The notes under the pieces are model-generated. The model saw nothing but the letters and a program-made list of their open reading frames with translations. It was not told the DNA's origin and searched no databases. The translations under genes and the position numbers were made by a program. From Antedon mediterranea (taxonomy: Eukaryota > Echinodermata > Crinoidea > Comatulida > Antedonidae): a DNA stretch of 64,000 bases. This document shows, piece after piece, positions 13,290-62,085 of this stretch (positions are counted from its first letter, which is position 1; every line of letters begins with the position of its first letter). The DNA lies in NCBI RefSeq assembly GCF_964355755.1, contig NC_092670.1:21575201-21639200 (forward strand), written 5' to 3'.

Positions 13290-19220
<5,931 letters not shown>

Positions 19221-19363
19221 TACGTTTTTGGAAATCAATTGGCCATATATAATAATTGGTTTACTACGAGAGAAACCAAATGACGAATCGTTGTGGACCG
19301 TAAATCTAAAACTATTTACTGAATACTCTCAAAACACAACATCATGTGAGAGCTATATATCCA

Positions 19364-19397
19364 ATACCAAATTGGCGAGTAAATCATGTTTTACTTT
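19364..19397. repeat. 34-bp inverted repeat, left copy
   Basis: ATACCAAATTGGCGAGTAAA followed by TCATGTTTTACTTT. The exact reverse complement lies at 28693-28726. The left copy sits 143 bp upstream of the ECD start codon. It outlines the repeat composite between ECD and LAMTOR2. Confidence 0.9.
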
Positions 19398-19588
19398 AAA
19401 TTAAATTTATACGCTCTTCCACAAGGTCAATTGTTAGTTATACATACAGACTATATTAAAACAATGATTTTGAACACGTAGGGCATTTCTTTGAATTCTT
19501 TCCTATTGTCGTTTTGTGGTAATTTACAGCTTTTTATATGTTAAACAAAAGTACATAATCAATTGCGTCTGCATCATGCTAGACTACA

Positions 19589-19607
19589 ACTTCCGGTAGT
19601 GACGTAA
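19589..19607. promoter_or_regulatory. ETS and CRE-like sites near the ECD promoter
   Basis: ACTTCCGGT (ETS/GABP consensus) is followed 2 bp later by TGACGTAA (CRE/ATF-like). This pairing is common in housekeeping promoters. It lies about 370 bp upstream of the ECD ATG, outside the satellite array. Promoter activity is an inference from motif content only. Confidence 0.5.
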
Positions 19608-19741
19608 TCAGCATATTTTTGGTAATAAAACTTTTTCACTAAGCTAGGGAATCTTCTGATATCAATATTCATTAGACCGTACTTTAGTTAGCCAATCAAA
19701 ATAAACGTATAAACAATTTTGCGGCGATGTTGTTGAGGTAA

Positions 19742-22700
19742 AATATACTGTGTTTTACAATAACCAATTTGGTTAGAGTAAAACACAATGATAAAGAATA
19801 GGAAACATATAATAATATGATAAATGTCATTACATAGCAATTTATCACTGTGTTTTACTATAACCAATTTGGTTAGAGTAAAACACAATGATATAGAATA
19901 GGCAACATTTAATAATATGATAAATGACATTTACATAGCAATTTAGCACTGTGTTTTACTATAAACAATTTGGTTAAAGTAAAGCAGAATGATAAAGAAT
20001 AGGAATTTAATAATATGATATATGACATTTACATAGCAATTTAGCACTGTGTTTTACTATAACCAATTTGGTTAGAGTAAAACACAATGATAAAGAATAG
20101 GAAACATTTAATAATATGATATATGACATTCACATAGCAATTTAGCACTGTGTTTTACTATAACCAATTTGGTTAGAGTAAAACACAATGATATAGAATA
20201 GGAAACATTTAATAATTTGATAAATGACATTTACATAGCAATTTGCACTGTGTTTTACTATAACCAATTTGGTTAAAGTAAAACACAATGATAAAGAATA
20301 GGAAACACTTAATAATATGATAAATGACATTTACATAGCAATTTAGCACTGTGTTTTACTATAACCAATTTGGTTAAAGTAAAGCAGAATGATAAAGAAT
20401 AGGAATTTAATAATATGATATATGACATTTACATAGCAATTTAGCACTGTGTTTTACTATAACCAATTTGGTTAGAGTAAAACACAATGATAAAGATTAG
20501 GAAATATTTAATAATAATGATTATTTACATAGCAATTTAGCACTGTGTTTTACTATAACCAATTTGGTTATAGTAAAACACAATGATATAGAATAGGAAA
20601 CATTTATTAATATGATAAATGACATTTACATAGCAATTTATCACTGTGTTTTACTATAACCAATTTGGTTAGAGTAAAACACAATGATAAAGAATAGGAA
20701 ACATTTAATAATAATGATTATTTACATAGCAATTTAGCACTGTGTTTTACTATAACCAATTTGGTTATAGTAAAACACAATGATAAAGAATAGGAAACAT
20801 TTAATAATATGATATATGACATTCACATAGCAATTTAGCACTGTGTTTTACTATGACCAATTTGGTTAGAGTAAAACACAATGATATAGAATAGGAAACA
20901 TTTAATAATTTGATAAATGACATTTACATAGCAATTTAGCACTGTGTTTTACTATAAACAATTTGGTTAAAGTAAAGCAGAATGATAAAGAATAGGAATT
21001 TAATAATATGATATATGACATTTACATAGCAATTTAGCACTGTGTTTTACTATAACCAATTTGGTTAGAGTAAAACACAATGATAAAGAATAGGAAACAT
21101 TTAATAATATGATATATGACATTCACATAGTAATTTAGCACTGTGTTTTACTATAACCAATTTGGTTAGAGTAAAACACAATGATATAGAATAGGAAACA
21201 TTTAATAATTTGATAAATGACATTTACATAGCAATTAGCACTGTGTTTTACTATAACCAATTTGGTTAAAGTAAAACACAATGATAAAGAATAGGAAACA
21301 CTTAATAATATGATAAATGACATTTACATAGCAATTTAGCACTGTGTTTTACTATAACCAATTTGGTTAAAGTAAAGCAGAATGATAAAGAATAGGAATT
21401 TAATAATATGATATATGACATTTACATAGCAATTTAGCACTGTGTTTTACTATAACCAATTTGGTTAGAGTAAAACACAATGATAAAGATTAGGAAATAT
21501 TTAATAATAATGATTATTTACATAGCAATTTAGCACTGTGTTTTACTATAACCAATTTGGTTATAGTAAAACACAATGATATAGAATAGGAAACATTTAA
21601 TAATATGATAAATGACATTTACATAGCAATTTATCACTGTGTTTTACTATAACCAATTTGGTTAGAGTAAAACACAATGATAAAGAATAGGAAACATTTA
21701 ATAATAATGATTATTTACATAGCAATTTAGCACTGTGTTTTACTATAACCAATTTGGTTATAGTAAAACACAATGATAAAGAATAGGAAACATTTAATAA
21801 TATGATATATGACATTCACATAGCAATTTAGCACTGTGTTTTACTATAACCAATTTGGTTAGAGTAAAACACAATGATATAGAATAGGAAACATTTAATA
21901 ATTTGATAAATGACATTTACATAGCAATTTAGCACTGTGTTTTACTATAACCAATTTGGTTAAAGTAAAACACAATGATAAAGAATAGGAAACACTTAAT
22001 AATATGATAAATGACATTTACATAGCAATTTAGCACTGTGTTTTACTATAACCAATTTGGTTAAAGTAAAGCAGAATGATAAAGAATAGGAATTTAATAA
22101 TATGATATATGACATTTACATAGCAATTTAGCACTGTGTTTTACTATAACCAATTTGGTTAGAGTAAAACACAATGATAAAGAATAGGAAATATTTAATA
22201 ATAATGATTATTTACATAGCAATTTAGCACTGTGTTTTACTATAACCAATTTGGTTATAGTAAAACACAATGATATAGAATAGGAAACATTTAATAATAT
22301 GATAAATGACATTTACATAGCAATTTATCACTGTGTTTTACTATAACCAATTTGGTTATGGTAAAGCACAATGATATAGAATAGGAAACATTTAATAATA
22401 TGATAAATGACATTTACATAGCAATTTAGCACTGTGTTTTACTATAACCAATTTGGTTAAAGTAAAACATAATGATAAAGAATAGGAAACATTTAATAAT
22501 ATGATAAATGACATTTACATAGCAATTTATCACTGTGTTTTACTATAACCAATTTGGTTATGGTAAAGCACAATGATATAGAATAGGAAACATTTAATAA
22601 TAATGATTATTTACATAGCAATTTAGCACCATGTTTTACTATAACCAATTTGGTTATGGTAAAGCACAATGATATAGAATAGGAAACATTTAATAATATG

Positions 22701-23350
22701 ATAAATGTCATTACATAGCAATTTAGCACTGTGTTTTACTATAACCAATTTGGTTAGAGTAAAACACAATGACAAAGAATAGGAAACATTTAATAATAAT
22801 GATTATTTACATAGCTAGCAATTTAGCACAATGTTTTACTATAACCAATTTGGTTATGGTAAAGCACAATGATATAGAATAGGAAACATTTAATAATATG
22901 ATAAATGTCATTACATAGCAATTTAGCACTGTGTTTTACTATAACCAATTGGGTTAGAGTAAAACACAATGATAAAGAATAGGAAACATTTTAATAACAT
23001 GATAAATGACATTCACATAGAAATTTAGCACTGTGTTTTACAATAACCAATTTGATTAGAGTAAAGCACAATGATAAAGAATATGAAACATTTAATAATA
23101 TGATAAATGACATTTACATAGTAATTTATCACTGTGTTTTACTATAACCAATTTGGTTAGAGTAAAACATTTTAACTATGATAAATGATATTTAGCACTG
23201 TGCTGGATACAGTAAAACACAAATTAAGAATAGGAAACATATAATAATATGATACATTTACATACAAATTTAGTATTGTGTTTTACTATAGCCAATTTGG
23301 TTACAGTAAAACACAATGATAATGAAACATTTATTATATGATATTATTTA
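19742..23350. repeat. Palindromic ~100-bp satellite array, left arm
   Basis: About 35 units of roughly 100 bp. Each holds GTGTTTTACTATAACCAA, a central T and then the reverse complement (18-bp arms in the best units), followed by ATGATAAAGAATAGGAAACA, TTTAATAATATGATAAATGA and CATTTACATAGCAATTTA. Units vary in a few fixed ways (a shortened AGGAATTTAATAA form, a TAATGATTATTTACATAG form), and these variants recur in a larger period of about 993 bp. Units decay towards 23350. Confidence 0.95.
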
Positions 23351-23515
23351 CATAGCAAAATATTATATTAAACATATCTTATTATCTAAACGTTATGAAA
23401 AGAATAGGATACATATAATGTAATAATATAATAAATACAAGTTACATAGTTTATCATCTTGTTTTACAGAACCAATTTGGTGACACAGTTAAACACAGTG
23501 ATAAAGAATAGATAC

Positions 23516-23934
23516 TGTTTTAGGTTATATAACCCTAACCCTAGTTTGAAGCGACATAATAAATTCATCGCGAAAAAGTACGTATCGTATTTAGAAACTT
23601 TTGAAATTTGTTAGATATGTTTAATAGGTTCTTACGTCTATAAAACAAAAAAAAAATATAAATTTCACAAAAAATTCGTGATTTTAATAATTTGCATTTC
23701 TAAAAATGTACACTTATGAAATACCATACATTTTCTAACACATTTTTACTTCATTGATGATTCCCAGAAATCAAAATAAAACAAATTATGATATTTCTTT
23801 TACATTATAGATGTAAGAACCTATATTGAACATGTACCAAATTTCAAACGTTTTTTAAGACGATACGTATTTTTATCGATGAATTAAGTATGTGATCGCT
23901 TCAAACTAGGGTTAGGGTTAAATAACCTAACAGT
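23516..23934. repeat. Long palindrome with telomere-like ends, copy 1
   Basis: The left end reads TAACCCTAACCCTAGTTTGA and then AGCGA, with CGTATCGTATT further in. The right end is its inverse, ACGATACGTATT ... TCGCTTCAAACTAGGGTTAG. Arms are about 130-150 bp with an AT-rich centre. Degenerate satellite units flank it on both sides, so it appears to be inserted into, or a component of, the array. Confidence 0.85.
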
Positions 23935-24135
23935 TCCATTCTTTAACACTGTGTTTAACTTTTAACCAAATTGGTTTTAGTACAACACAATGATAAACTA
24001 TGTACATTTTATTTTTCATATTACATTATAGGATACATATAATGTAATAATAATAAATACAAGTTACATAGTTTATCATCTTGTTTTACAGAACCAATTT
24101 GGTTACACAGTTAAACACAATGATAAAGAATAGAC

Positions 24136-24563
24136 ACTGTTTTAGGTTATATAACTCTAACCTTAGTTTGAAGCGATCACATACTTAATTCATCGCGAAA
24201 AAATACGTATCGTATTCAGAAACATTTGAAATTTGGTAAATATGTTCAATAGGTTCTTACGTCTATAAAACAAACAAAAAATAAAAGTTTCAAGACAAAT
24301 TCGTGATTTTAATAATTTGCATTTCTAAACATTTACACTTATGAAAGACAATACATTTCCAACACATTTTTACTTCATTGATGATTCTCAGAAATCAAAA
24401 TAAAACTATTAGGATATTTCTTTTGCATTTTAGATGTAAGAACCTATATTGAACATATCTACCAAATATCAAACGTTTTTCAAGACGATACGTATTTTTA
24501 GCGATGAATATTAAATATGTGATCGCTTCAAACTAGGGTTAGGGTTAAATAAACTAAAACAGT
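24136..24563. repeat. Long palindrome with telomere-like ends, copy 2
   Basis: A second copy of the same palindrome, about 620 bp downstream. It has AACTCTAACCTTAGTTTGAA at the left and TTCAAACTAGGGTTAGGG at the right, again flanked by satellite-like sequence. A third, half-length version (about 24885-25165) keeps only the right-hand arm clearly (ATACGATACG ... TCGCTTCAAACTAGAGGG). Confidence 0.85.
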
Positions 24564-25570
24564 TCTATTCTTTATCACTCACTGTGTTTAACTTTTAACC
24601 AAAATGGTTATAGTAAAACACAATGATAAACTTATATGTCAATTTTATTTTTCATAACATAAAATGTTTGATATTCTTTATAATATTTAATATTATATTT
24701 TAGGCCTACTATTAATGACGTATAAATGCACACTACATCTGAAATAACTTTCTACTTCATTGGCGATTCTTACCAAAAAAAAAGAACTAATTTTGTTATG
24801 TATATAGAGCAACCTATTATAACATGTCTTGTATGATTTTTATCTCGTTTCAATGACATTTTATACTACAATTCAAATGAAAAAGCATCACAAAAAAATA
24901 CGTCTGGTATTCAAAAAGTTTCTAAACTCGGTACACAGAAAAAAGGAAATGTTGAAAATGTATGGTCTTTCATAAGTGTGAATTTTTAGAAATGCAAATA
25001 ATGGAAATCATCGATTTGTCTTGAAATTTATAATTTGTTTTGTCTTATTGAACATATCTATACAAAATGTCAAACGTTTCTGAATACGATACGTTTTTTT
25101 TCTCGATGAATTTATAATGTCGCTTCAAACTAGAGGGTAGGGTAGTAACCTAACAAGTATCTATTCTTTATCACTATGTTTAACTGTGTAACCATATTGG
25201 TTCTAATAAAAAACAATGATAAACTATGTAAATTGTATGTTTCATATAATTACATTTTTTCCAAAAAAAAATTATTGGGAATGTCAAATTTCTTTTTCAT
25301 GACATATATCTACAAATTTCAGAAGCTTTTGAGTACGAGTATTTTACGCGATGTTTTTTTATCCTCATTTTAATATTTTGGTAATGTAATTCACATAAAG
25401 TTTTGTATCCAAAAATTGTTTATTCTTGGGTAGAAATGAAGAAATAAATAGTATTCCTGTATAATATAATAATCAATAATAAAGTATTAAAAAAAATGTT
25501 GTGTAAACGAACGTTTTTTACGCTTCGAATTTTCTGTTACATTATGTTTGAATTGAAGCTACAGATATTG

Positions 25571-25611
25571 AATCATGGACCTATAAATTAGTAATTTATA
25601 GGTCCATGATT
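25571..25611. repeat. Perfect 41-bp palindrome
   Basis: Arms AATCATGGACCTATAAATTA and its exact reverse complement around a single central G. It lies near the middle of the composite, just before the 15-bp arrays. Confidence 0.95.
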
Positions 25612-25904
25612 GAACATATCGTCACTCACCACACATTTTTTGTTTTGTATTTCGAAAGTATTTATTCTAAAGAACAATTGATGCAAACATCAACTGCGTA
25701 TCTTATTTCATTAATTAATTATATTAATTATAATTTGGCGATTATTCGTCATACGAAGAGTCGAATATCGATTCGTCTCGTCATGGGAAGAAAACGTGCA
25801 TTGCGCACACTGTTTACGCGCCTCAACAATAAACGGCGAATATGCGATTCGTCACTTATGGAACGCCGTTTTACACAAGTTTTTGGCGATGATAAAAATT
25901 GCAT

Positions 25905-26100
25905 CGATGATGAAATTGCGTCGATGAAAATTGCATCGACGCAATGTAGATTGCGTCGATGCAATGTAGATTGCGTCGACGCAATTTACATTTCGTCGAT
26001 GAAAATTGCATCGATGAAAATTGCGTCGATGAAAATTGCGTCGATGAAAACTGCATCGATGAAAATTGCGTCGATGAAAACTGCATCGATGAAAATTGAT
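25905..26100. repeat. 15-bp GATGAAAATTGCGTC array, left arm
   Basis: About 12 tandem copies of GATGAAAATTGC(G/A)TC, preceded by TTTTTGGCGATGATAAAAAT. The array is the inverse of the one at 26515-26700. Apparent open frames through it are by-products of a repeat period divisible by three. Confidence 0.9.
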
Positions 26101-26514
26101 GTGATGAATTTGATTGATTATGAAAATTCCAAATGGTTTTAATTCAATCAATGATGAAAATGACTACTAGTAAAGTAAATGATGATGTTAATAATGATGT
26201 TAATAATGTTATTATGTTGCTAAAAATTGACGGTTTCTGAATATTTTGATATGATAAACATGTTTACCGCTTGCGCTAGCGCGCGTTATAGACAAGCGCA
26301 CAGTGATCGCGCACTAAAACAATGTTGAAATATATGCACTGATTAACATTTTAGTGATTTATTGTCAACACATTTTAGCAATGGATCCATTATTGTCCTT
26401 TCGGACACATTATATCTTCTAGCTAATTGCTTCCGTTAATCCACCAGTTCAGTACATAAAATCCAGATGTCCAGCATCCATGACATCATATTCAAATCAT
26501 ACCGGCAGGGAGAT

Positions 26515-26700
26515 CGCAATTTTCATCGATGAAAACTGCATCGATGAAAAATTTTTTTTTTTTCATCGATGCAGTTTTCATCGATGCAGTTTTCATCAAC
26601 GCAATTTTCATCGACGCAATTTTCATCACATTAACGCAATTTTCATTACATCGACGCAATTTTCATTGCATCATCGACGCGATTTTATCATCGCCTAAAC
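26515..26700. repeat. 15-bp array, inverted right arm
   Basis: Repeats of GCAATTTTCATCGAC, ending GATTTTATCATCGCCTAAAC, are the mirror of the left arm's outer edge. Within it, a local hairpin AACTGCATCGATGAAAAA / TTTTTCATCGATGCAGTT surrounds a T-run at 26552-26560. Confidence 0.9.
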
Positions 26701-27069
26701 TGGCATTCCATACTAATTGCGTGTGATCTGATTGGTGTATTATAAATAAATTCATCGCGATGAATTTTTCAGTAGATGTAATGAGACAGTTCAGTAGATG
26801 TAATGACAGTTAATTTAATTGTTCTGCTCTTTTTGTACAAATCTATACTACTTTATATTATGGATTTTGTAGTACTGTTAAAATTATTAAATCTCTGGAA
26901 GTGTGTTTTACGAGTATGTCCGCAAATTTATGCGTTTACGGTTTTAAAATGTGAGTTTTAAATAGCGAACATGATCTTGTTAGGTGCACTACGCACGCAG
27001 TATTCCAAAATGTCTTACTAATTGGGAGAAAATCATATTGTATCATATCATATTATATCCATTCTTTAA

Positions 27070-28510
27070 ATTCATATTCTTTATCCAAAACTAAATTGGT
27101 ATAGTAAAACACAGTGCTAGCAATTTATCATATTATTAAATGTTTCATATTCTTTATCATTGTGTTTTACTCTAATCAAATTGGTATAGTAAAACACAGT
27201 GCTAAATTGCTATGTGAATGTCATTTATCATATTTTTAAATGTTTCCTATTCTTTATCATTGTGCTTTACCATAACCAAATTGGTTATAGTAAAACACAG
27301 TGCTAAATTGCTATGTAAATGTTATATATCATATTATTAAATTCCTATTCTTTATCATTGTGTTTTACTCTAACCAAATTGGTTATAGTAAAACACAGTG
27401 ATAAATTGCTATGTAAATGTAATTTATCATATTATTAAATGTTTCCTATTCTTTATCATTGTGTTTTACTCTAACCAAATTGGTTATAGTAAAACACAGT
27501 GATAAATTGCTATGTAAATGTAATTTATCATGTTATTAAATGTTTCCTATTCTTTATCGTTGAGTTTTACTCTAATCAAATTGGTTATAGTAAAACACAG
27601 TGCTAAATTGCTATGTAAATGTTATATATCATATTATTAAATGTTTCCTATTCTTTATCATTGTGTTTTACTCTAATCTGATTGGTTATAGTAAAACAAA
27701 GTGCTAAATTGCTATGTGAATGTCATTTATCATGTTATTAAATGTTTCTTATTCTTTATCATTGTGTTTTACTCTAACCAAATTGGTTATAGTAAAACAC
27801 AGTGATAAATTGCTATGTAAATGTAATTTATCATATTATTAAATGTTTCCTATTCTTTATCATTGTGTTTTACTCTAACCAAATTGGTTATAGTAAAACA
27901 CAGTGATAAATTGCTATGTAAATGTAATTTATCATGTTATTAAATGTTTCCTATTCTTTATCGTTGTGTTTTACTCTAATCAAATTGGTTATAGTAAAAC
28001 ACAGTGCTAAATTGCTATGTAAATGTTATATATCATATTATTAAATGTTTCCTATTCTTTATCATTGTGTTTTACTCTAATCTGATTGGTTATAGTAAAA
28101 CACAGTGCTAAATTGCTATGTGAATGTCATTTATCATGTTATTAAATGTTTCCTATTCTTTATCATTGTGCTTTACTCTAACCAAATTGGTTATAGTAAA
28201 ACACAGTGCTAAATTGCTAAATGTCATTTATCATGTTATTAAATGTTTCTTATTCTTTATCATTGTGTTTTACTCTAACCAAATTGGTTATAGTAAAACA
28301 CAGTGCTAAATTGCTATGTAAATGTAATTTATCATATTATTAAATGTTTCCTATTCTTTATCATTGTGTTTTACTCTAACCAAATTGGTTATAATTTATT
28401 TAATTTCATTTCAAAAGACATTTACCTAAATTGCTATTTAAATGTCATTTATCAAATTATTAAATGTTTCCTATTATTTATCTGGTTATATAGTAAAACA
28501 CTGTGCTAAA
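27070..28510. repeat. Palindromic ~100-bp satellite array, right arm (inverted)
   Basis: About 13-14 units of the same satellite as 19742-23350 but in the opposite orientation: TAAATTGCTATGTAAATGT, ATTATTAAATGTTTCCTATT, CTTTATCATTGTGTTTTACT, then CAAATTGGTTATAG. The units near the inner edge (27070) are the most decayed. Confidence 0.95.
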
Positions 28511-28560
28511 TTGCTATTGTATTAAGGACGAGTTCCGAGAAGATGTATTCAAAGCTACAA

Positions 28561-28609
28561 CCAATCAGAACAGTGTTAATCAATATAGTCCATGGCTACA
28601 GCCAATCAG
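28561..28609. promoter_or_regulatory. Two CCAATCAG boxes upstream of LAMTOR2
   Basis: CCAATCAG occurs at 28561-28568 and 28602-28609, about 235-280 bp upstream of the LAMTOR2 ATG. Paired CCAAT boxes (NF-Y type) fit a TATA-less housekeeping promoter. No experimental support is possible here. Confidence 0.45.
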
Positions 28610-28692
28610 AAACGTCCAAATCGCAATAACCCCTAGGCTAATAGAAATTATTGGTCCGAGTAGCCTTTTCAACCAGACGTTGCGAGGTTTAA

Positions 28693-28726
28693 AAAGTAAA
28701 ACATGATTTACTCGCCAATTTGGTAT
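28693..28726. repeat. 34-bp inverted repeat, right copy
   Basis: Exact reverse complement of 19364-19397. It ends 116 bp upstream of the LAMTOR2 ATG. The bases outside the two copies show no obvious target-site duplication. Confidence 0.9.
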
Positions 28727-28842
28727 AGTTTATATACCTGCATGTGACCGGTTCACAATTCTTTCAACCTTTCCGTGTGTCACATTACCTAGCCTAATTA
28801 AGTGTTTTCTTAATTAATTTTTACTGAAATCCTGTTTCGATG

Positions 28843-29951
28843 ATGCTAAAACCGAAAGCTCTTACCCAAGTATTAAGTCAAGCTAATACAGGAGGTGTTA
28901 AAAGTACATTGTGAGTATTCAAAAGCATAAAAAAACAACTTAATTTAGTTAGGCCCTCGTCTAGTCTATCTACCTAGCCTACCTACAGTAGTTGCCGGGT
29001 AGGTTAACCAGGGAGGTATCCTCCCTGGGTTAACCCACTACTCTCTTGTACTCTAAACGGGTCTCTAACCTAGTAGTTATCAGTACTACTACTATAGTGT
29101 TAAGTTATTATTACCAGCATGATAATAGAATCAGCTAGACTAGTCTCTAGATCTAAAAATGAAATATCCTGACTCACTGTTGATATTTATTTATCGCCAT
29201 AAGTAATAATTGTAATGTACAGACTACAGTACAGTATATACTTTTTTTAGAAAATTTTACAAAATATAAAATTGATTAATTCCCTTCAGACTACTCAATC
29301 TTGAGGGTAACCTGTTAGCATTTTCCGGTTATGGAGACAAAGATGCAAGGGTGACAGCAGCCATTGCCAGCAATATTTGGTCTGCTTATGAGAAGAATGG
29401 ACGTATAGCCTTTAATGAAGACAACTTGGAGCTAATACTTATGGAATGTGAGGTAGGAATAAGTATGCATTAATTATCACTCTCAAAAATGTTGCATTCA
29501 TTCATTCATTATCAGCCTAAACATATATAGCTTTATAAACTTAATTAAGAAAGTAATTTCTTTTCAATTATATTTTCTTTTTTCCAAATAGGATGGTCGA
29601 GTGGCAATCAGTGAAGTTGCAAATCTTCTTCTGTGTATATACTCTGGCCCAGATGTAGGATTTGGTATGCTGAAGGCTAAGGTAAAAATAACTTATTATT
29701 TCTATAATCTAAATCAACAGTATATTGTATAAAGTTCACAAAACGGATGCACAGTAGTTCTGAAAAGAACTGTCAAGTCTTCTCAAAAGTTTACTTTAAG
29801 CTCTGTCTACACTATCAAACCTTCAAAAAATATACCTGTATATAAATATTTTTAATCAACATAATTTAATTCACAAATTGTTCTTTGTCAGATAAAAGCA
29901 CTGGTAGAATATTTAGAAGAACCTCTAACACAAGTAGCTGCTACAACATAA
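28843..29951 (+). CDS. LAMTOR2: Ragulator subunit LAMTOR2 (p14, roadblock domain)
   Basis: Exons 28843-28910, 29290-29452, 29592-29681 and 29892-29951 (TAA) give 126 residues; human has 125. An in-frame ATG also lies immediately before, at 28840; the chosen start gives the family's [19 protein letters not shown]. The protein is one roadblock/LC7 fold: [63 protein letters not shown] and the conserved tail [10 protein letters not shown]. In animals LAMTOR2 pairs with LAMTOR3 in the Ragulator scaffold on late endosomes and lysosomes, which tethers Rag GTPases and mTORC1, and also MEK1. AATAAA at 30467 is a plausible poly(A) signal about 500 bp beyond the stop. It is divergent from ECD across the repeat composite. 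Confidence 0.97.
29797..29820. mobile_element. MITE, family B, solo end
   Basis: Only AAGCTCTGTCTACACTATCA and a few more bases survive. It is in a LAMTOR2 intron and is probably a remnant. Confidence 0.5.
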
Positions 29952-53800: not shown

Positions 53801-56800
53801 TAAAGTTACGCGCGCACGCGCGTTTAAAATTTCAAATTGCGAAAAATCCATTTCTAATCAACTTTCTACGCGTTTCAGGTCATTTTGAGCATTTCAAAAA
53901 TTCCCACGCGTGCGCATTTTTTTTACGCGCGCGTGCGCACGTAACGCAAAAACATCTTTTTTTTGCTTGATTTTTGTTTTTTCAGCCTTTTCTAGTAAAT
54001 TTACCAATTTTCAATCAATTTTGACTTAAAATCACGTCATACGAGCACGTAGAATTAAACAATTTGCGCGCATTTTTTAAGAAAAAGTTCCAAAATTCGT
54101 CAAAATTATGCCTTTTTTAAAACAGTCATAGATTGTAAACTACGAGGAGAACTTTTTTTAAATTACACATTCTGGAAGATAATGAGTTGTAGATATCGAA
54201 TCATGCATCGATATGGCTAACCGGACATTGTGACGTCATCGTTTGGCCACTCGAATATGAAATATAGGATTTTTGTCTCTTTCGTCATAGCTCGTCACAT
54301 TTAATAGAGCGCATCTCCACTTATCCGTATTCCATTTCCCTCAATTTTTTTATTTTGTCTAGGTCAATCAATTATCTTTCGCATGATTTACCATTTTTTA
54401 AATTGTGATGACGTCATCATGTCCAAAAGCGTCAATAACTTGGGCCACTTATTTTCACATATTCTTCACTGTATGTAGTACGTATACAATATATAGTGTA
54501 TACTGTGTATACTTAGACGTGACGTAAAATAGAGAGCGCACTAACATTTTTTCAATGGCATAATGTTTTTCTCTGCGCAATATTCTAACGTATGACGTGC
54601 ACGTGGCTTTTGCTCTGCGGATAACCTAACTCGTCCGTAGTGACGAGTTCAAATCTAGTTTTTATTTGAAATTTATGCGATTGCAAATTAGAAAATAGAT
54701 GCTGTTTATTTTAATTATTTTTTATTAATTTAACAATTTTTAAATTGTTACCTAATTGTTTGGTTTTAAATAGTGAAAAGAGGAATAGTGCCCCAAGTGA
54801 TAAACAACAAAGTTAAGTATTTAGGATGTGAGCATTTTCCAAGTACCATAATTGATCAAACAAGTGCTACTGTTTGAAATAAGCATGGTTTTGTTTTATT
54901 TGTAAGATGCACTTCCTGGTTAAGTTGATTTTAAAAATTTTAAAAATCAGTCAAATATTGAAATTATTTTACACTTTTGATATAAATTTTAATGTAACTT
55001 AGTAAATATAACATAAATGGAGTTTCCCGGAGGTTGAGAGTAATATAAATGATAACCATTCTCAACATACAAATATGTGCTATCGCTGTAACCTAAAAAG
55101 CATTTGGTGGTAAGCGTTTGATCATTTGTGGTACTTAAAACATGTGTTCATGCGTTATCACTAAGAATGTTAACTGATATTGATGTGATTTGTATACATC
55201 TGGTTTCATCGTGAAGATTGTCATCTGTCATGTTGCAGACATTGATTCATGACATTTTTAGTAATGTCTTTACTGCAGTTTGTCACTTATTTTCAATCCA
55301 TTTCTTTCTCAAATCATCCAATTATAACAATATGTAATAAAAATGGAAATACCAGTACTAGTGTATAAACCAAACTAAAGATTACATAATATACAAATAA
55401 TGAATGTTTATGAGTACAAATAATGGCACGAGGTGAATGATGAAAGGTTATATCAACGAGGCAAAGCCGAGTTGATATAACCTTTCATCATTCACCAAGT
55501 GCCATTATTTGTACCATTACACGAATACAAAACATTCATTATTTGTTTTATATAACATCTAGACGTTTTTTTTTTGTACACAAAAATGTTTCAAAAAGTA
55601 CTATTTAACGATCGTTGAATAGTGCGTACTATTGCACGCCATGTGACCCACATTCGTCCAATCAAATGACAGGAATTTATATAGGTGTTATATAATTTAC
55701 AATAGCAAAGAACAATACATTTATGACCAGTGTACATCATGTACACATCCTATAACGTGGAGTAGTTTTTAACTGGGGTACCAGGTTTAGGCATTTTGTA
55801 GCTCACACTCATTTGAAGTGAGTGAGCCCTCTACAATCTACCCTCTACAATGCAAGTTTTACTCGTTTATGAGAACATGGGTATTCACTTTCAGTTACAA
55901 TATTTCATTCATATTCATATTGTTCATCTTCAAAACCTCAGATATTGTGTCTTTGAAACTTGCTTGTTGTGTATTGCATTATAAAGGTCAAAGGTCAATC
56001 TGTTATAGTATTTTATGCAAATAAGTCGTGTTGGTATTCTATGAGTGCCTAGTTTATTGCACAATATTCAAATATTGATAACTTCATGCTTCTATTTTCG
56101 ACTGTCCCACATGATTAGCTCGGTAACAACAAAGCAAATTTTGTATATTTTATGGACATAATAGACTGAATCATCCTTTCTATTTTGTCATCATTTGCTT
56201 TTAGTTTTTTAATGTTTTACATGACTTGCTGCATGCCATCTGAGTTTGTGTCTTTCATTTCATCAGTGATGTCATCAATTTCATAAGTGATGTCATTAAT
56301 TTCATCAGTGATGTCATCAATTTCATAAGTGATGTCATCAATTTCATCAGTGATGTCATCAATTTCATAAGTGATGTCATCAATTTCATAAGTGATGTCA
56401 TTAATTTCATCAGTGATGTCATCAATTTCATAAGTGATGTCATCAATTTTGCCAGTGATGTCACCAATTTAATCAATGATGTCATTAAACTCATTGATTT
56501 ACTTTATAATATTCCAAAATCAAGCAAAAGGAGAAATATACATTTTTATAAATTTATATAATTCATTAGAAAAAAAGAATAAATATGATAATATTCATGA
56601 AATAAAAATGATATAAAATTACAGAAAAAAATCATGTCATTAATACATTTGTTTTCTCTTTTTGTTATACAGTACTTTCATTGTCATATTCTAATGATAT
56701 GCTTGATTGATTTTCTAATGATTTCATTTGCATTGTGCTTCATATGGAAATGTTTGTGCATGTCATTAAAATCAACAGAGGCTGGTAACCATCTTCAAAG

Positions 56801-59800: not shown

Positions 59801-62085
59801 TCATTGTACTACTAATATACAGGTTTGCTTTATAAGCACTTTATTTTAAGATTGACTCCTAAGTCCTTTTATTATACACTTGCCCAACAATGTATTCCAT
59901 AATATGGATGTAACAGACCTAAATAAACCCACACATACATCATATTAATTTAGAGAGAGACAATTGAACTTGTGCTTTATAAGCACTTTGGTTTAAGATT
60001 GAATCCTAAGCCCTTCTATTATACACTTGCTCAACAATATTCCATAATATGGATGTAACAGACCTTATTAACCCACACATACATCATATTAATAATTTAG
60101 AAATAAGACAAGTGAACTTGTGCCTTATAAGAACTTTGTTTTGACTCCTTTCATTATCAACTTGGCCTATAATTTATTCCATCTTACATGGGGGTAACAA
60201 TAACCCTAATTAATAAAGCCAAACATACATCATATTAGTTATATTATTGAGACAATTGAACTTTGTTTGAATCCTTCCATTGTCAACTTGGCCTATAATA
60301 TCATGCATCTTACATGGCAGTAACAATAACCCTAATTAATAAAGCCAAACATACATCATATATTAAGAATTTAGAGAATTAAACCTAATTAATACTTGTG
60401 CAAAAACATGTGTTTTCGAGACATAAAACAATGGTTAAAGCTGTCTATGAGTAAGTATTAGGCATGTGCACTTTGGATGGTACATTTTATCTGCATCTTG
60501 GCATGACAACAAGAAAATATCATTGGGATATTTTCAAACTTCTTTTTCTTTAATGTGTGTCTAAAGAAAAAAATGTGTTAATGGACTACTTTGCTATATG
60601 CTTTGCTTGCTTGTTTTACTAAACCTTTGCTTGATTATATTTGCAATTATGTTATTGTTTTTCATTTTTCATAATATAACTGTTAATCTTAATTTAAAAA
60701 TTAATTGACATGATTTAACTAACTTTTATATAGTTTTACTACATTTAAATAGCTTCTCTTTTCCACTTTTTTTTTTTAATGAAACATAGGGTTTTCACGC
60801 TTTGTTTGAATTAAGCAATCTATTTTGCAGTATTACAGTTTTTACTAGAGTGTGTCTGCTAATAAGTTACAATGTATTATAATAGAAAACAAACTCTGAA
60901 CAAAAAGTGAGGCAACCCATTGTAAAATTCAAACTTAATTTCTTTATCCTCAAGAATAGCATCAAAGTTGAGGTTTTTCACAATTTCAGATCTTCCACAT
61001 ATTTAATAATAATAACTCCTGGATATTTCTTGGTAGTTTTTCATTACGCTTGCTGAATATTATGGTTCAAAGACATTATCTGTTAGGGTTTATTTATGCT
61101 TCTTTTTTTTTTACATATTTATTTAACCAATTTATTCATTGAACTCGATTCGTTTGTGTTTCTTTTTATTACCAATATTACAAAGTCATTAGTATATTTT
61201 CAAAGGTAAATTATGTTTTCTGGTTGTATAAGAATTCATATATTGATGTATTATTATGATACTCTGTCATTACCATATGAATATATGATTATTGGTAATA
61301 TGATATGAGCATGGACAATTCAAACCAAAGTGGAATATATGTGATCTATTATGTAATCTCTTAAATACGAATCCAATCACTTCTTTTTTTCATTTCCAAG
61401 CTGGGTCTTTAGTCTTTATAGCTAGTCAAGGCTTTAAGCTTTGTTTCTCTTTGGAACGAAACGCAATGACGTAGGTGCAACACAAACACAAAAGTGAGTT
61501 GACCAATTAGATGTGACAGGTCAGATGATACATCGCGTTGTGATTGGTCAAAATACTTACAGTGAGCTTGCGTCCTTGCGTTGTGTCCAAGTAAGAACCA
61601 TGCTTTAGCACAAATAGGCTTTACCTTTACATTAAAAGTAGAAAAACAAGATATTTTCCTCCTAAATTGTATTGTTTAAAGATGTTTAATATTTCAACAG
61701 GAGCAGACCTGTACCTGCAAAAAGACCAAGCAAACGAAAAGCACCAAAGGCACCAGCAGTGGGTGCTTCTCTGTCCTCGCCGACATCAACACTGACACGG
61801 CAAGGTGACAGCGCAACATCGCTCAATACCAGCAACCATTCGTCAAGTGAGTCCGCAGAACTGCTTCTTGAAGATGAAGTTGAAAGTAAGATGCATCAAG
61901 TTCCACCAACGAATCTGGCCACGTCGCAACCTGTCGCACAACCAGAGATGGAGACATGTATGTCACCAACTTCACCTCTAGGGAAAACAAGAACACAGTC
62001 TATCAAGAAACCATTAGCATCTCCTCCACCTCCTCCTAAACCATTAGAAACAAGAAATTCAGATCATTTTGAAACAAAATTTTAA
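41876..62085 (+). CDS. BAR-domain RhoGAP, ARHGAP17/ARHGAP44 (RICH/nadrin) family
   Basis: Exons: 41876-41946, 45986-46025, 46147-46248, 47132-47208, 47892-48003, 49253-49329, 50090-50279, 50482-50739, 51318-51384, 51592-51673, 51768-51848, 52406-52522, 52903-52982, 53096-53324, then a terminal exon, here 61701-62085; all phases agree (655 residues). The start MIKKDAVKKHMNRMRQLANQ matches the family N-terminus. Residues ~10-245 form the BAR domain (AEKTEVLNEDLQ, YVESQAQYHRNALAKLE), which senses membrane curvature. The RhoGAP domain spans about 265-450: arginine finger in EEEGLFRLAGS, LKMYLRELPEPLL, NKMNTSNLALVIAPNILW. The tail is Ser/Pro-rich, with the SH3 ligand PPPPPKP and a C-terminal ETKF that fits a class I PDZ ligand. 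The family inactivates Rac1/Cdc42 at junctions and in vesicle trafficking. Which vertebrate paralogue it corresponds to is not resolved. Confidence 0.95.
43500..43590. repeat. Dispersed repeat, copy 2
   Basis: Shares TAGTACCATTTTGATTACGA and the following bases with 15790-15910. It is in RhoGAP intron 1. Confidence 0.5.
44703..44985. repeat. Tandem duplication, two ~140-bp units
   Basis: Both units contain CACAAAAATTCATAGAATAG, CCAAATAAAAACCTTACTTT, GCACACAGTAATAA(A/G)GTATTA and TTAAATTAAATAATTATACA. The second unit has a short deletion. Confidence 0.85.
45753..45855. repeat. Dispersed repeat C, copy 1
   Basis: Shares GTGCACATGAGC(T/C)AGATGTGTACACTG, CCTACG(A/G)TTTATA and AAGACTC...CCACCAGAACCA with 52021-52131. 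It may be a SINE fragment; no Pol III boxes were seen. Confidence 0.6.
47491..47760 (+). mobile_element. tRNA-derived SINE, copy 1
   Basis: The head carries a Pol III A box (TGGCTTGGTGG, ~47507) and B box (GGGTTCAAGTCC, ~47549) at tRNA-like spacing. A unique body follows (TTTGTTTATGTAGAGCATCT), ending GATGATGATAAA and a run of about 20 A. It is in a RhoGAP intron, in sense orientation. A second copy lies at 58832. Confidence 0.85.
50995..51146. mobile_element. MITE, family B, copy 6
   Basis: CTGTCTACACTATCAAACTA at the left and ATTTGATAGTGTAGACAGGG at the right, with CCTAAATATGGTATTGATAT inside. It is the most complete copy, flanked by CTAAAGC/GCTTTAG. It is in RhoGAP intron 8. Confidence 0.85.
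52021..52131. repeat. Dispersed repeat C, copy 2
   Basis: Matches 45753-45855 and is followed by AGCGAGTGAGGCTCG. The sequence upstream (51890-52020) may belong to the same element. It is in a RhoGAP intron. Confidence 0.6.
53455..54660. mobile_element. Unclassified 1.2-kb element, possibly Helitron-like
   Basis: Begins with the palindrome GGTTATCCGC acttg GCGGATAACC and ends with GCGGATAACC followed by the hairpin ACTCGTCcgtagtGACGAGT and TCAAATCTAG|T. The hairpin and CTAG end resemble a Helitron 3' terminus. The interior has blocks of CGCG-rich words (ACGCGCGCACGCGCG) within AT-rich DNA. No Rep/helicase coding was found. It is in the RhoGAP intron after exon 14. Confidence 0.4.
54774..54816 (+). 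other. Possible RhoGAP alternative terminal exon 1
   Basis: Acceptor TTTTAAATAG. In the phase left by exon 53096-53324 it reads SEKRNSAPSDKQQS and stops (TAA). It would give a 541-residue protein. The upstream region is T-rich, as an acceptor needs. Splicing is not shown. Confidence 0.35.
55391..55550. repeat. Long nested hairpin (~160 nt)
   Basis: The inner stem is perfect over 26 bp: 55432-55457 (GGTGAATGATGAAAGGTTAT...) against 55471-55496, with the loop GAGGCAAAGCCGA. After a 2-nt mismatch the stem continues through TACAAATAATGGCAC / GTGCCATTATTTGTA, and after bulges through ACAAATAATGAATGTTT / AAACATTCATTATTTGT. Confidence 0.9.
56258..56490. repeat. 21-bp minisatellite, about 11 copies
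   Basis: Unit ATTTCAT(C/A)AGTGATGTCATC plus A, alternating between CAG and AAG variants. Each unit carries a GTGATGTCA word, close to an ATF/CRE site. The open antisense frame (MTSLMK repeats) exists only because 21 is divisible by three. Confidence 0.9.
57731..57854 (+). CDS. RhoGAP alternative terminal exon 2
   Basis: Acceptor TTTTTTTTTTCGTTATGCAG. It is in phase with exon 53096-53324 and reads SPRQKRRAPLAPGRGPKPHS, then SAERDVAAKPALASKPNKHS and L before TAG. The basic, Pro/Ala-rich composition and GC-rich codons stand out from the AT-rich flanks. It gives a 568-residue isoform without the PPPPPKP and ETKF tail encoded at 61701-62085. Confidence 0.7.
57910..58073. mobile_element. MITE, family B, copy 7
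   Basis: ATCTCTGTCTACTATCAAAC at the left and GTTTGATAGCGTAGACAGAG at the right; internally CACTACCATATTTGGGCACA. It lies 55 bp after the alternative stop codon at 57854. Confidence 0.85.
58832..59060 (-). mobile_element. tRNA-derived SINE, copy 2
   Basis: Reverse complement of the SINE at 47491: GATCCATCCAGCAATTGCTG, AACATATACACAAGATGCTC, and the degenerate B box GACTTGAATCC read on the plus strand. It has several substitutions, so it is older than copy 1 or has diverged independently. Confidence 0.8.
59828..60378. repeat. Tandem repeat, four ~120-145-bp units
   Basis: Units share TGC(T/C)TTATAAG(C/A)ACTTT, TATTCCATAATATGGATGTA in the first two or CATCTTACATGG in the last two, and ACATACATCATATTA in all. 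The units are diverged, so the array is old. It lies in the last RhoGAP intron. Confidence 0.85.
61431..61609. mobile_element. MITE, family A, copy 3 (diverged)
   Basis: GCTTTAAGCTTTGTTTCTCT at the left, GTGAGTTGACCAATTAGATG and GTGATTGGTCAAAATACTTA as the inner arms, and AAGAACCATGCTTTAGC at the right. It lies 91 bp upstream of the terminal RhoGAP exon. Confidence 0.75.

Follow-up and report, generated by a model that had tools for sequence, protein, structure and literature searches.

The window analysed here, a stretch of 64,000 nucleotides from Antedon mediterranea (contig NC_092670.1, positions 21,575,201 to 21,639,200), contains a 9.4-kb block of nested inverted repeats between ECD and LAMTOR2, and the question is what this block is and how it came to lie between two housekeeping genes. 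The initial annotation had suggested either a very large non-autonomous foldback element with terminal inverted repeats (TIRs) or a replication-generated palindrome, and had considered the possibility of an assembly join.

Extent of the block and its position between two genes

The identity of the flanking genes proposed initially was confirmed by PF07093 in three exons of ECD and by PF03259 in LAMTOR2, the latter matching PDB chains with E=2.8e-51. The first coding exon of ECD occupies 18984-19220 (minus strand, start codon at 19220) and that of LAMTOR2 28840-28908 (plus strand, start codon at 28840).

The perfect 34-bp inverted repeat described as bounding the block is present at 19364-19397 and 28693-28726. 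The assembly (354 Mb, 18 contigs) was searched with its inner 29 bp, allowing at most 3 mismatches, and gave 120 matches, compared with 0 for a control pattern. In an alignment of 30 loci the similarity runs 14-16 bp further outwards and then stops abruptly; the element therefore comprises 19350-28740 (9,391 bp, plus strand; G000:C1:21594550-21603940), its ends being the points at which left-end and right-end loci diverge. The anatomy first proposed was thus retained, but the extent of 19364-28726 had to be enlarged by 14 bp on each side.

The TIRs of the window element are 48 bp long and imperfect as a whole, only the inner 34 bp being perfect. The left one (GAGCTATATATCCAATACCAAATTGGCGAG...) lies at 19350-19397 on the plus strand and the right one (CAGGTATATAAACTATACCAAATTGGCGAG...) at 28693-28740 on the minus strand. 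The left end reads GAGCTATATATCCAATACC and the right end, read inwards, CAGGTATATAAACTATACC; in short form the two ends are GAGCTATATATCC and CAGGTATATAAAC, respectively. The 34-bp repeat is perfect in the window copy because this copy belongs to a subgroup of five that carry ACCAAATTGG in the right TIR, where most copies carry ACCAAACTGG.

The element is flanked by two copies of the target-site duplication (TSD) CATGTGA, at 19343-19349 and 28741-28747 (both plus strand). Long near-identical arrays are hard to assemble and array copy numbers may be imprecise, which would speak for a collapsed or misjoined contig. However, both junctions with unique gene DNA show exact family ends and one matching 7-bp TSD, which cannot come from array-length errors; the assembly join is hereby refuted and an artefact of this kind is hardly credible.

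The element lies 129 bp from the start codon of ECD and 99 bp from that of LAMTOR2, and after removal of the element and one TSD copy the two start codons are only 221 bp apart. The window copy has split the bidirectional promoter of two conserved housekeeping genes. Since both genes are of this kind, either the promoter halves that remain or sequence from the element must be sufficient, unless the haplotype is harmful. The insertion of 9.4 kb into a bidirectional promoter of only 221 bp that serves both genes constitutes a natural experiment.

Dispersed copies and their insertion sites

The left-end pattern was found at 57 places in the assembly and the right-end pattern at 58, with 54 of the left ends identical over 36 bp. 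Properly oriented pairs of ends define 53 elements and a further six with shortened or diverged ends bring the family to about 59 loci, spread over eleven contigs. The shortest measures 1.4 kb and the longest 22.8 kb, with a median of 8.8 kb and a total of 542 kb. The 34-bp end facing the satellite, as seen in the window, was searched for genome-wide and was seen in the copies read; the condition named initially as refuting the element, a 34-bp sequence that flanks the satellite nowhere else, was thus checked and did not hold.

TSDs were analysed in the 39 elements for which both flanks were available. A perfect direct duplication of 7 bp was present at the called ends of 32 elements and at those of C5:240731 (ACATATC) once its right boundary had been shifted by a few bases, which gives 33 of 39. 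Most of the six elements without a perfect TSD have a truncated or diverged end; in C2:11106978 the ends are intact, yet the TSD match is only 5 bp. The TSD length is constant at 7 bp, and TSDs and flanks are different at every site.

TIRs on a dispersed repeat together with a constant TSD length characterize a TIR-type (class II) DNA transposon, and the block in the window is almost certainly a transposon. Of the two origins put forward in the initial annotation, the very large non-autonomous foldback/TIR element is the one borne out by the dispersed, TSD-flanked copies. The symmetry could in principle have arisen in place, by replication error or fold-back amplification at the ECD-LAMTOR2 locus, as palindromes nested at several scales at one place would suggest. 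The recurrence of the same structure with the same ends and with TSDs, at about 59 loci spread over eleven contigs, refutes a replication-generated palindrome and makes any origin in place scarcely conceivable.

The target sites share a two-fold symmetric motif that is centred on the TSD and extends beyond it, with a pyrimidine at 9 and 6 positions from the TSD centre in 59/64 and 53/64 half-sites, respectively. The CpG ratio near insertion sites was 0.93 vs 0.75 in the window (p=0.03), and GC content was raised in only one of two tests (p=0.006; p=0.17 in the second); the background was a single window, so no preference for promoters is claimed. Most family copies (40/58) lie in the outer halves of contigs, and most matches to P-type transposases (27/32) in the central halves. 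At G000:C10:7470200-7471000 two left ends face each other approximately 0.5 kb apart without a right end.

Internal structure, age and variation of the copies

The internal features listed in the initial annotation were recovered at the expected positions. The left TIR is followed by a subterminal domain of 344 bp (19398-19741, plus strand), which is 97-100% conserved among copies and, beyond the TIR, has no homology to the right subterminal domain of 182 bp (28511-28692, plus strand). Next come the oppositely oriented satellite arrays, the left one with a unit of approximately 101 bp at 19742-23350 (plus strand) and the right one, inverted relative to it, at 27070-28510 (minus strand), for which TRF reported 34.4 x 101 bp at 19747-23169 and 12.7 x 101 bp at 27122-28393. 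The arrays measure 3.6 and 1.4 kb and are 92-95% complementary, with inverted arms of up to 491 nt that are 94% complementary. Each unit of the left array includes a near-palindrome of about 35 bp; the palindrome of the satellite unit is hairpin-forming (z -3.2) and in 42 of 47 units has no more than 2 mismatches among the 16 arm positions.

Between the arrays lies a tandem pair of approximately 620-bp units (23351-24550, plus strand; about 90% identical), each consisting of satellite spacer and a telomere-like palindrome. The two palindromes (about 23531-23935 and 24141-24550) have arm-to-arm scores of 78 and 87, whereas 20 dinucleotide shuffles of each reached no more than 19 and 20. They are followed by the 41-bp perfect palindrome with an odd centre (25571-25611, no strand; fold z -9.97), the 15-bp array GATGAAAATTGCGTC (25891-26098, plus strand), its inverted counterpart TTTTCATCGACGCAA (26560-26686, minus strand) and an internal non-coding segment (26701-27069, plus strand), which is 98-100% identical across the full-size copies read and was the source of a family marker. 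The palindromes and the inverted 15-bp arrays greatly exceed chance expectation. The telomere-like motif is only two units long. A telomeric origin of the CCCTAACCCTA palindromes was considered and rejected: all 100 of the matches listed fall inside elements, so the motif belongs to the family of the window element. Unrelated tandem arrays with units of 23, 21 and 147 bp occur elsewhere in the window, at 780-1197, 56257-56485 and 59826-60142, respectively.

The window copy has a sister, C2:6978715 on another chromosome, 99.88% identical over 9,391 bp (7 mismatches and 4 gap positions) and flanked by a different TSD, CTGTCGG. Elsewhere in the family, single-copy segments mostly show 97-100% identity to their counterparts in the window copy, and by these identities the family is young and recently spread. 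The near-identity of the sister copy suggests a very recent insertion at the ECD-LAMTOR2 locus. This argues against co-option of the element as a regulatory or insulating region for the two genes, which its proximity to both start codons might otherwise favour and which is very improbable.

Ten full-size copies, the window copy and nine others, follow one non-coding plan segment by segment, bar small deletions and rearrangements: imperfect TIRs of 48 bp, subterminal domains unrelated to each other, a palindromic satellite of about 100 bp in two inverted arrays, nested palindromes and inverted 15-bp arrays. The marker from the internal segment was detected in 55 of the 59 elements, the other four being an old relative of 1.4 kb, two copies with deletions and a copy into which a Gypsy-like retrotransposon has inserted. 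The lengths of the arrays vary from copy to copy. C8:7072726 carries an inverted block that runs from the left spacer almost as far as the 41-bp palindrome, which is what recombination between inverted arrays should produce. The longest copies read owe their length to other elements inserted in their arrays, not to transposase genes: C7:22800567 contains one copy of a second giant foldback element, C4:31171059 contains two, and C11:16928063 contains a 2.6-kb TIR element.

This second giant foldback family is a near-perfect palindrome of 7.2 kb, with two arms of approximately 3.5 kb (96% identical) around a 182-bp centre, the ends TATGGCAAGCCTCAGCTG and 6-bp duplications (AGGAAA, ACACAG and AAATTG). 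Its three occurrences lie in satellite arrays of the first family, at G000:C7:22800460-22817090 and C4:31170960-31193950, and its centre shares about 77% identity with the telomere-like palindromes seen in the window copy. One family copy harbours an LTR retrotransposon with long open gag-pol frames (G000:C10:8098000-8113500).

The satellite appears, from the matches found, to be confined to this family, as 98 of the first 100 exact matches listed fall in known copies. The two matches outside them are at G000:C1:58771-59104, 58 kb into the contig. No array is present in the diverged 1.4-kb copy, which carries a satellite-like motif once per side in opposite orientation, which suggests, from this one copy, that the arrays may have grown out of a single inverted pair. 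The family is a clean, young, multi-copy example of a transposon that harbours satellite arrays and disperses them. Since array lengths, internal inversion and nested insertions are all readable within one assembly, the role of arrays in foldback elements becomes testable.

Probable mobilising transposase and relation to known foldback elements

The absence of a transposase gene, noted from the outset, holds for the window copy, whose longest open reading frame (178 aa) runs into a 15-bp array and gives no Pfam match. No transposase is encoded in the copies read, including the open reading frames of the longest ones, and a search of the assembly with PF21787 gave 35 matches, none of them inside any family copy. 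Given also the marker in 55/59 elements, the family looks non-autonomous, though a coding copy that keeps the marker may exist among the about 42 of 53 paired copies that were not fully read. A relaxed TIR search with the inner positions excluded revealed no family end adjoining a P-type transposase; at 3 mismatches it gave 16 matches vs 4 in the control.

One P-type element of the same genome, present in three near-identical copies, encodes RNase H and GTP-binding domains and has 32-bp TIRs, with the TSDs CGGACAC and GTTTATA in the two copies read. Its TIR (CTGAGACAACA), the only P-type TIR compared, is unrelated to the family TIR, so this element is not shown to be the partner.

To mobilise the family, a transposase acting in trans, most probably one from the P superfamily, would bind the element ends, excise the element and insert it at a 7-bp staggered cut. 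The 7-bp TSD is within the 7-8 bp of the P superfamily, which fits since both Galileo and P-type elements of the same genome make 7-bp duplications. We infer mobilisation by a P-type transposase only indirectly, because no mobilising copy with matching TIRs was found. A cut-and-paste transposon of foldback-like, non-autonomous type, with the P superfamily as the most likely source of its transposase, is nonetheless the reading well favoured by the data; the P-superfamily assignment taken alone is probable, with somewhat less assurance.

The same non-autonomous transposon could have been moved by another transposase making 6-8 bp duplications, from Dada, hAT or an undescribed superfamily. Dada elements generate TSDs of 6-7 bp. 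The TSDs of hAT elements are 5-8 bp long and some hAT ends begin with CAGG, as does the right end here; that no P-type element with matching TIRs was found also points this way. On the other hand, the TSD length is constant at 7 and not 8 bp, and P-type elements of this genome make 7-bp TSDs. Dada is the less likely candidate, given that its families insert at fixed sites in small RNA genes, whereas TSDs and flanks vary by site in this family and the sites share only a weak symmetric motif. A non-P transposase is accordingly the considerably less likely source of the mobility.

In the P-type reading the inverted arrays might serve as additional transposase-binding sites, like the tandem repeats in Galileo ends, or might be a by-product of unequal exchange. 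The former is possible but rather doubtful: homology between the TIR and the satellite unit (ACCAAATTGG, GTTTTAC) was dropped as an argument, since the score of 11 was equalled or exceeded by 63 of 200 shuffles and is not significant, and the binding-site role is left without statistical support. Should there be no autonomous partner, an unrelated P-type transposase might mobilise the family through the satellite arrays, array growth raising transposition; the satellite, not the tip sequence, would then be the main recognition signal, which seems improbable.

The element falls within an established class of mobile DNA: it is a foldback-like, non-autonomous DNA transposon whose long inverted arms consist of internal tandem repeats and are able to fold back. 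The arms do not form a continuous long TIR from the tip, as non-homologous domains of 344 and 182 bp intervene. It is unusual in its size, copy number and homogeneity, and in the unrelated subterminal domains that lie between its short TIRs and the inverted arrays.

The closest precedents are Galileo and Tetris of Drosophila. Galileo, a member of the P superfamily, produces TSDs of 7 bp, and its long, repetitive inverted ends contain multiple sites for THAP domains, whose binding to the tandem repeats of the ends has been shown. It resembles the window family also in its non-autonomous copies, in the varying number of its tandem repeats and in the inverted middle segment of some copies. In contrast, the TIR of Galileo is one continuous repeat of about 0.3-1.2 kb, while the TIR here has 48 bp and is followed by unrelated subterminal domains and kilobase-scale inverted satellite arrays; related Galileo copies encode P transposase, while a coding relative was not found here, and the Galileo TSD consensus GTAGTAC was not seen in the family of the window element. 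Tetris, a foldback element of Drosophila virilis, is likewise non-autonomous, modular and without conserved ORFs, and the inverted arrays inside its ends (tandem repeats of ~220 bp) change in number and can become satellite DNA. It differs in TSDs of 8-10 bp, three structurally complete copies and repeats placed within long TIRs, as against 7-bp TSDs, about 59 copies and far longer arrays in the window family.

Foldback (FB) elements of D. melanogaster and TU elements of sea urchin, likened here by description alone, also consist of inverted arrays of short tandem repeats flanking a middle segment, but their TSDs are 8-9 and not 7 bp long. Tm1 of root-knot nematodes (Mutator/foldback) is a further foldback-like TIR element family; being of Mutator type, it differs in its longer TSDs.

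The genome contains near-identical P-superfamily elements of approximately 5.55 kb at G000:C1:2819415-2827858 and C8:6204861-6213304, with 32-bp TIRs, 7-bp duplications, an open frame of 794 aa (PF21787 and PF21788) and a second, opposite open frame; these P-type transposons appear to have been active recently. Another P-type element of recent duplication is present at G000:C3:12880554 and C6:31439164, and its 616-aa frame matches PF12017 and PF21787, with a weak zf-AD-like match at the N-terminus.
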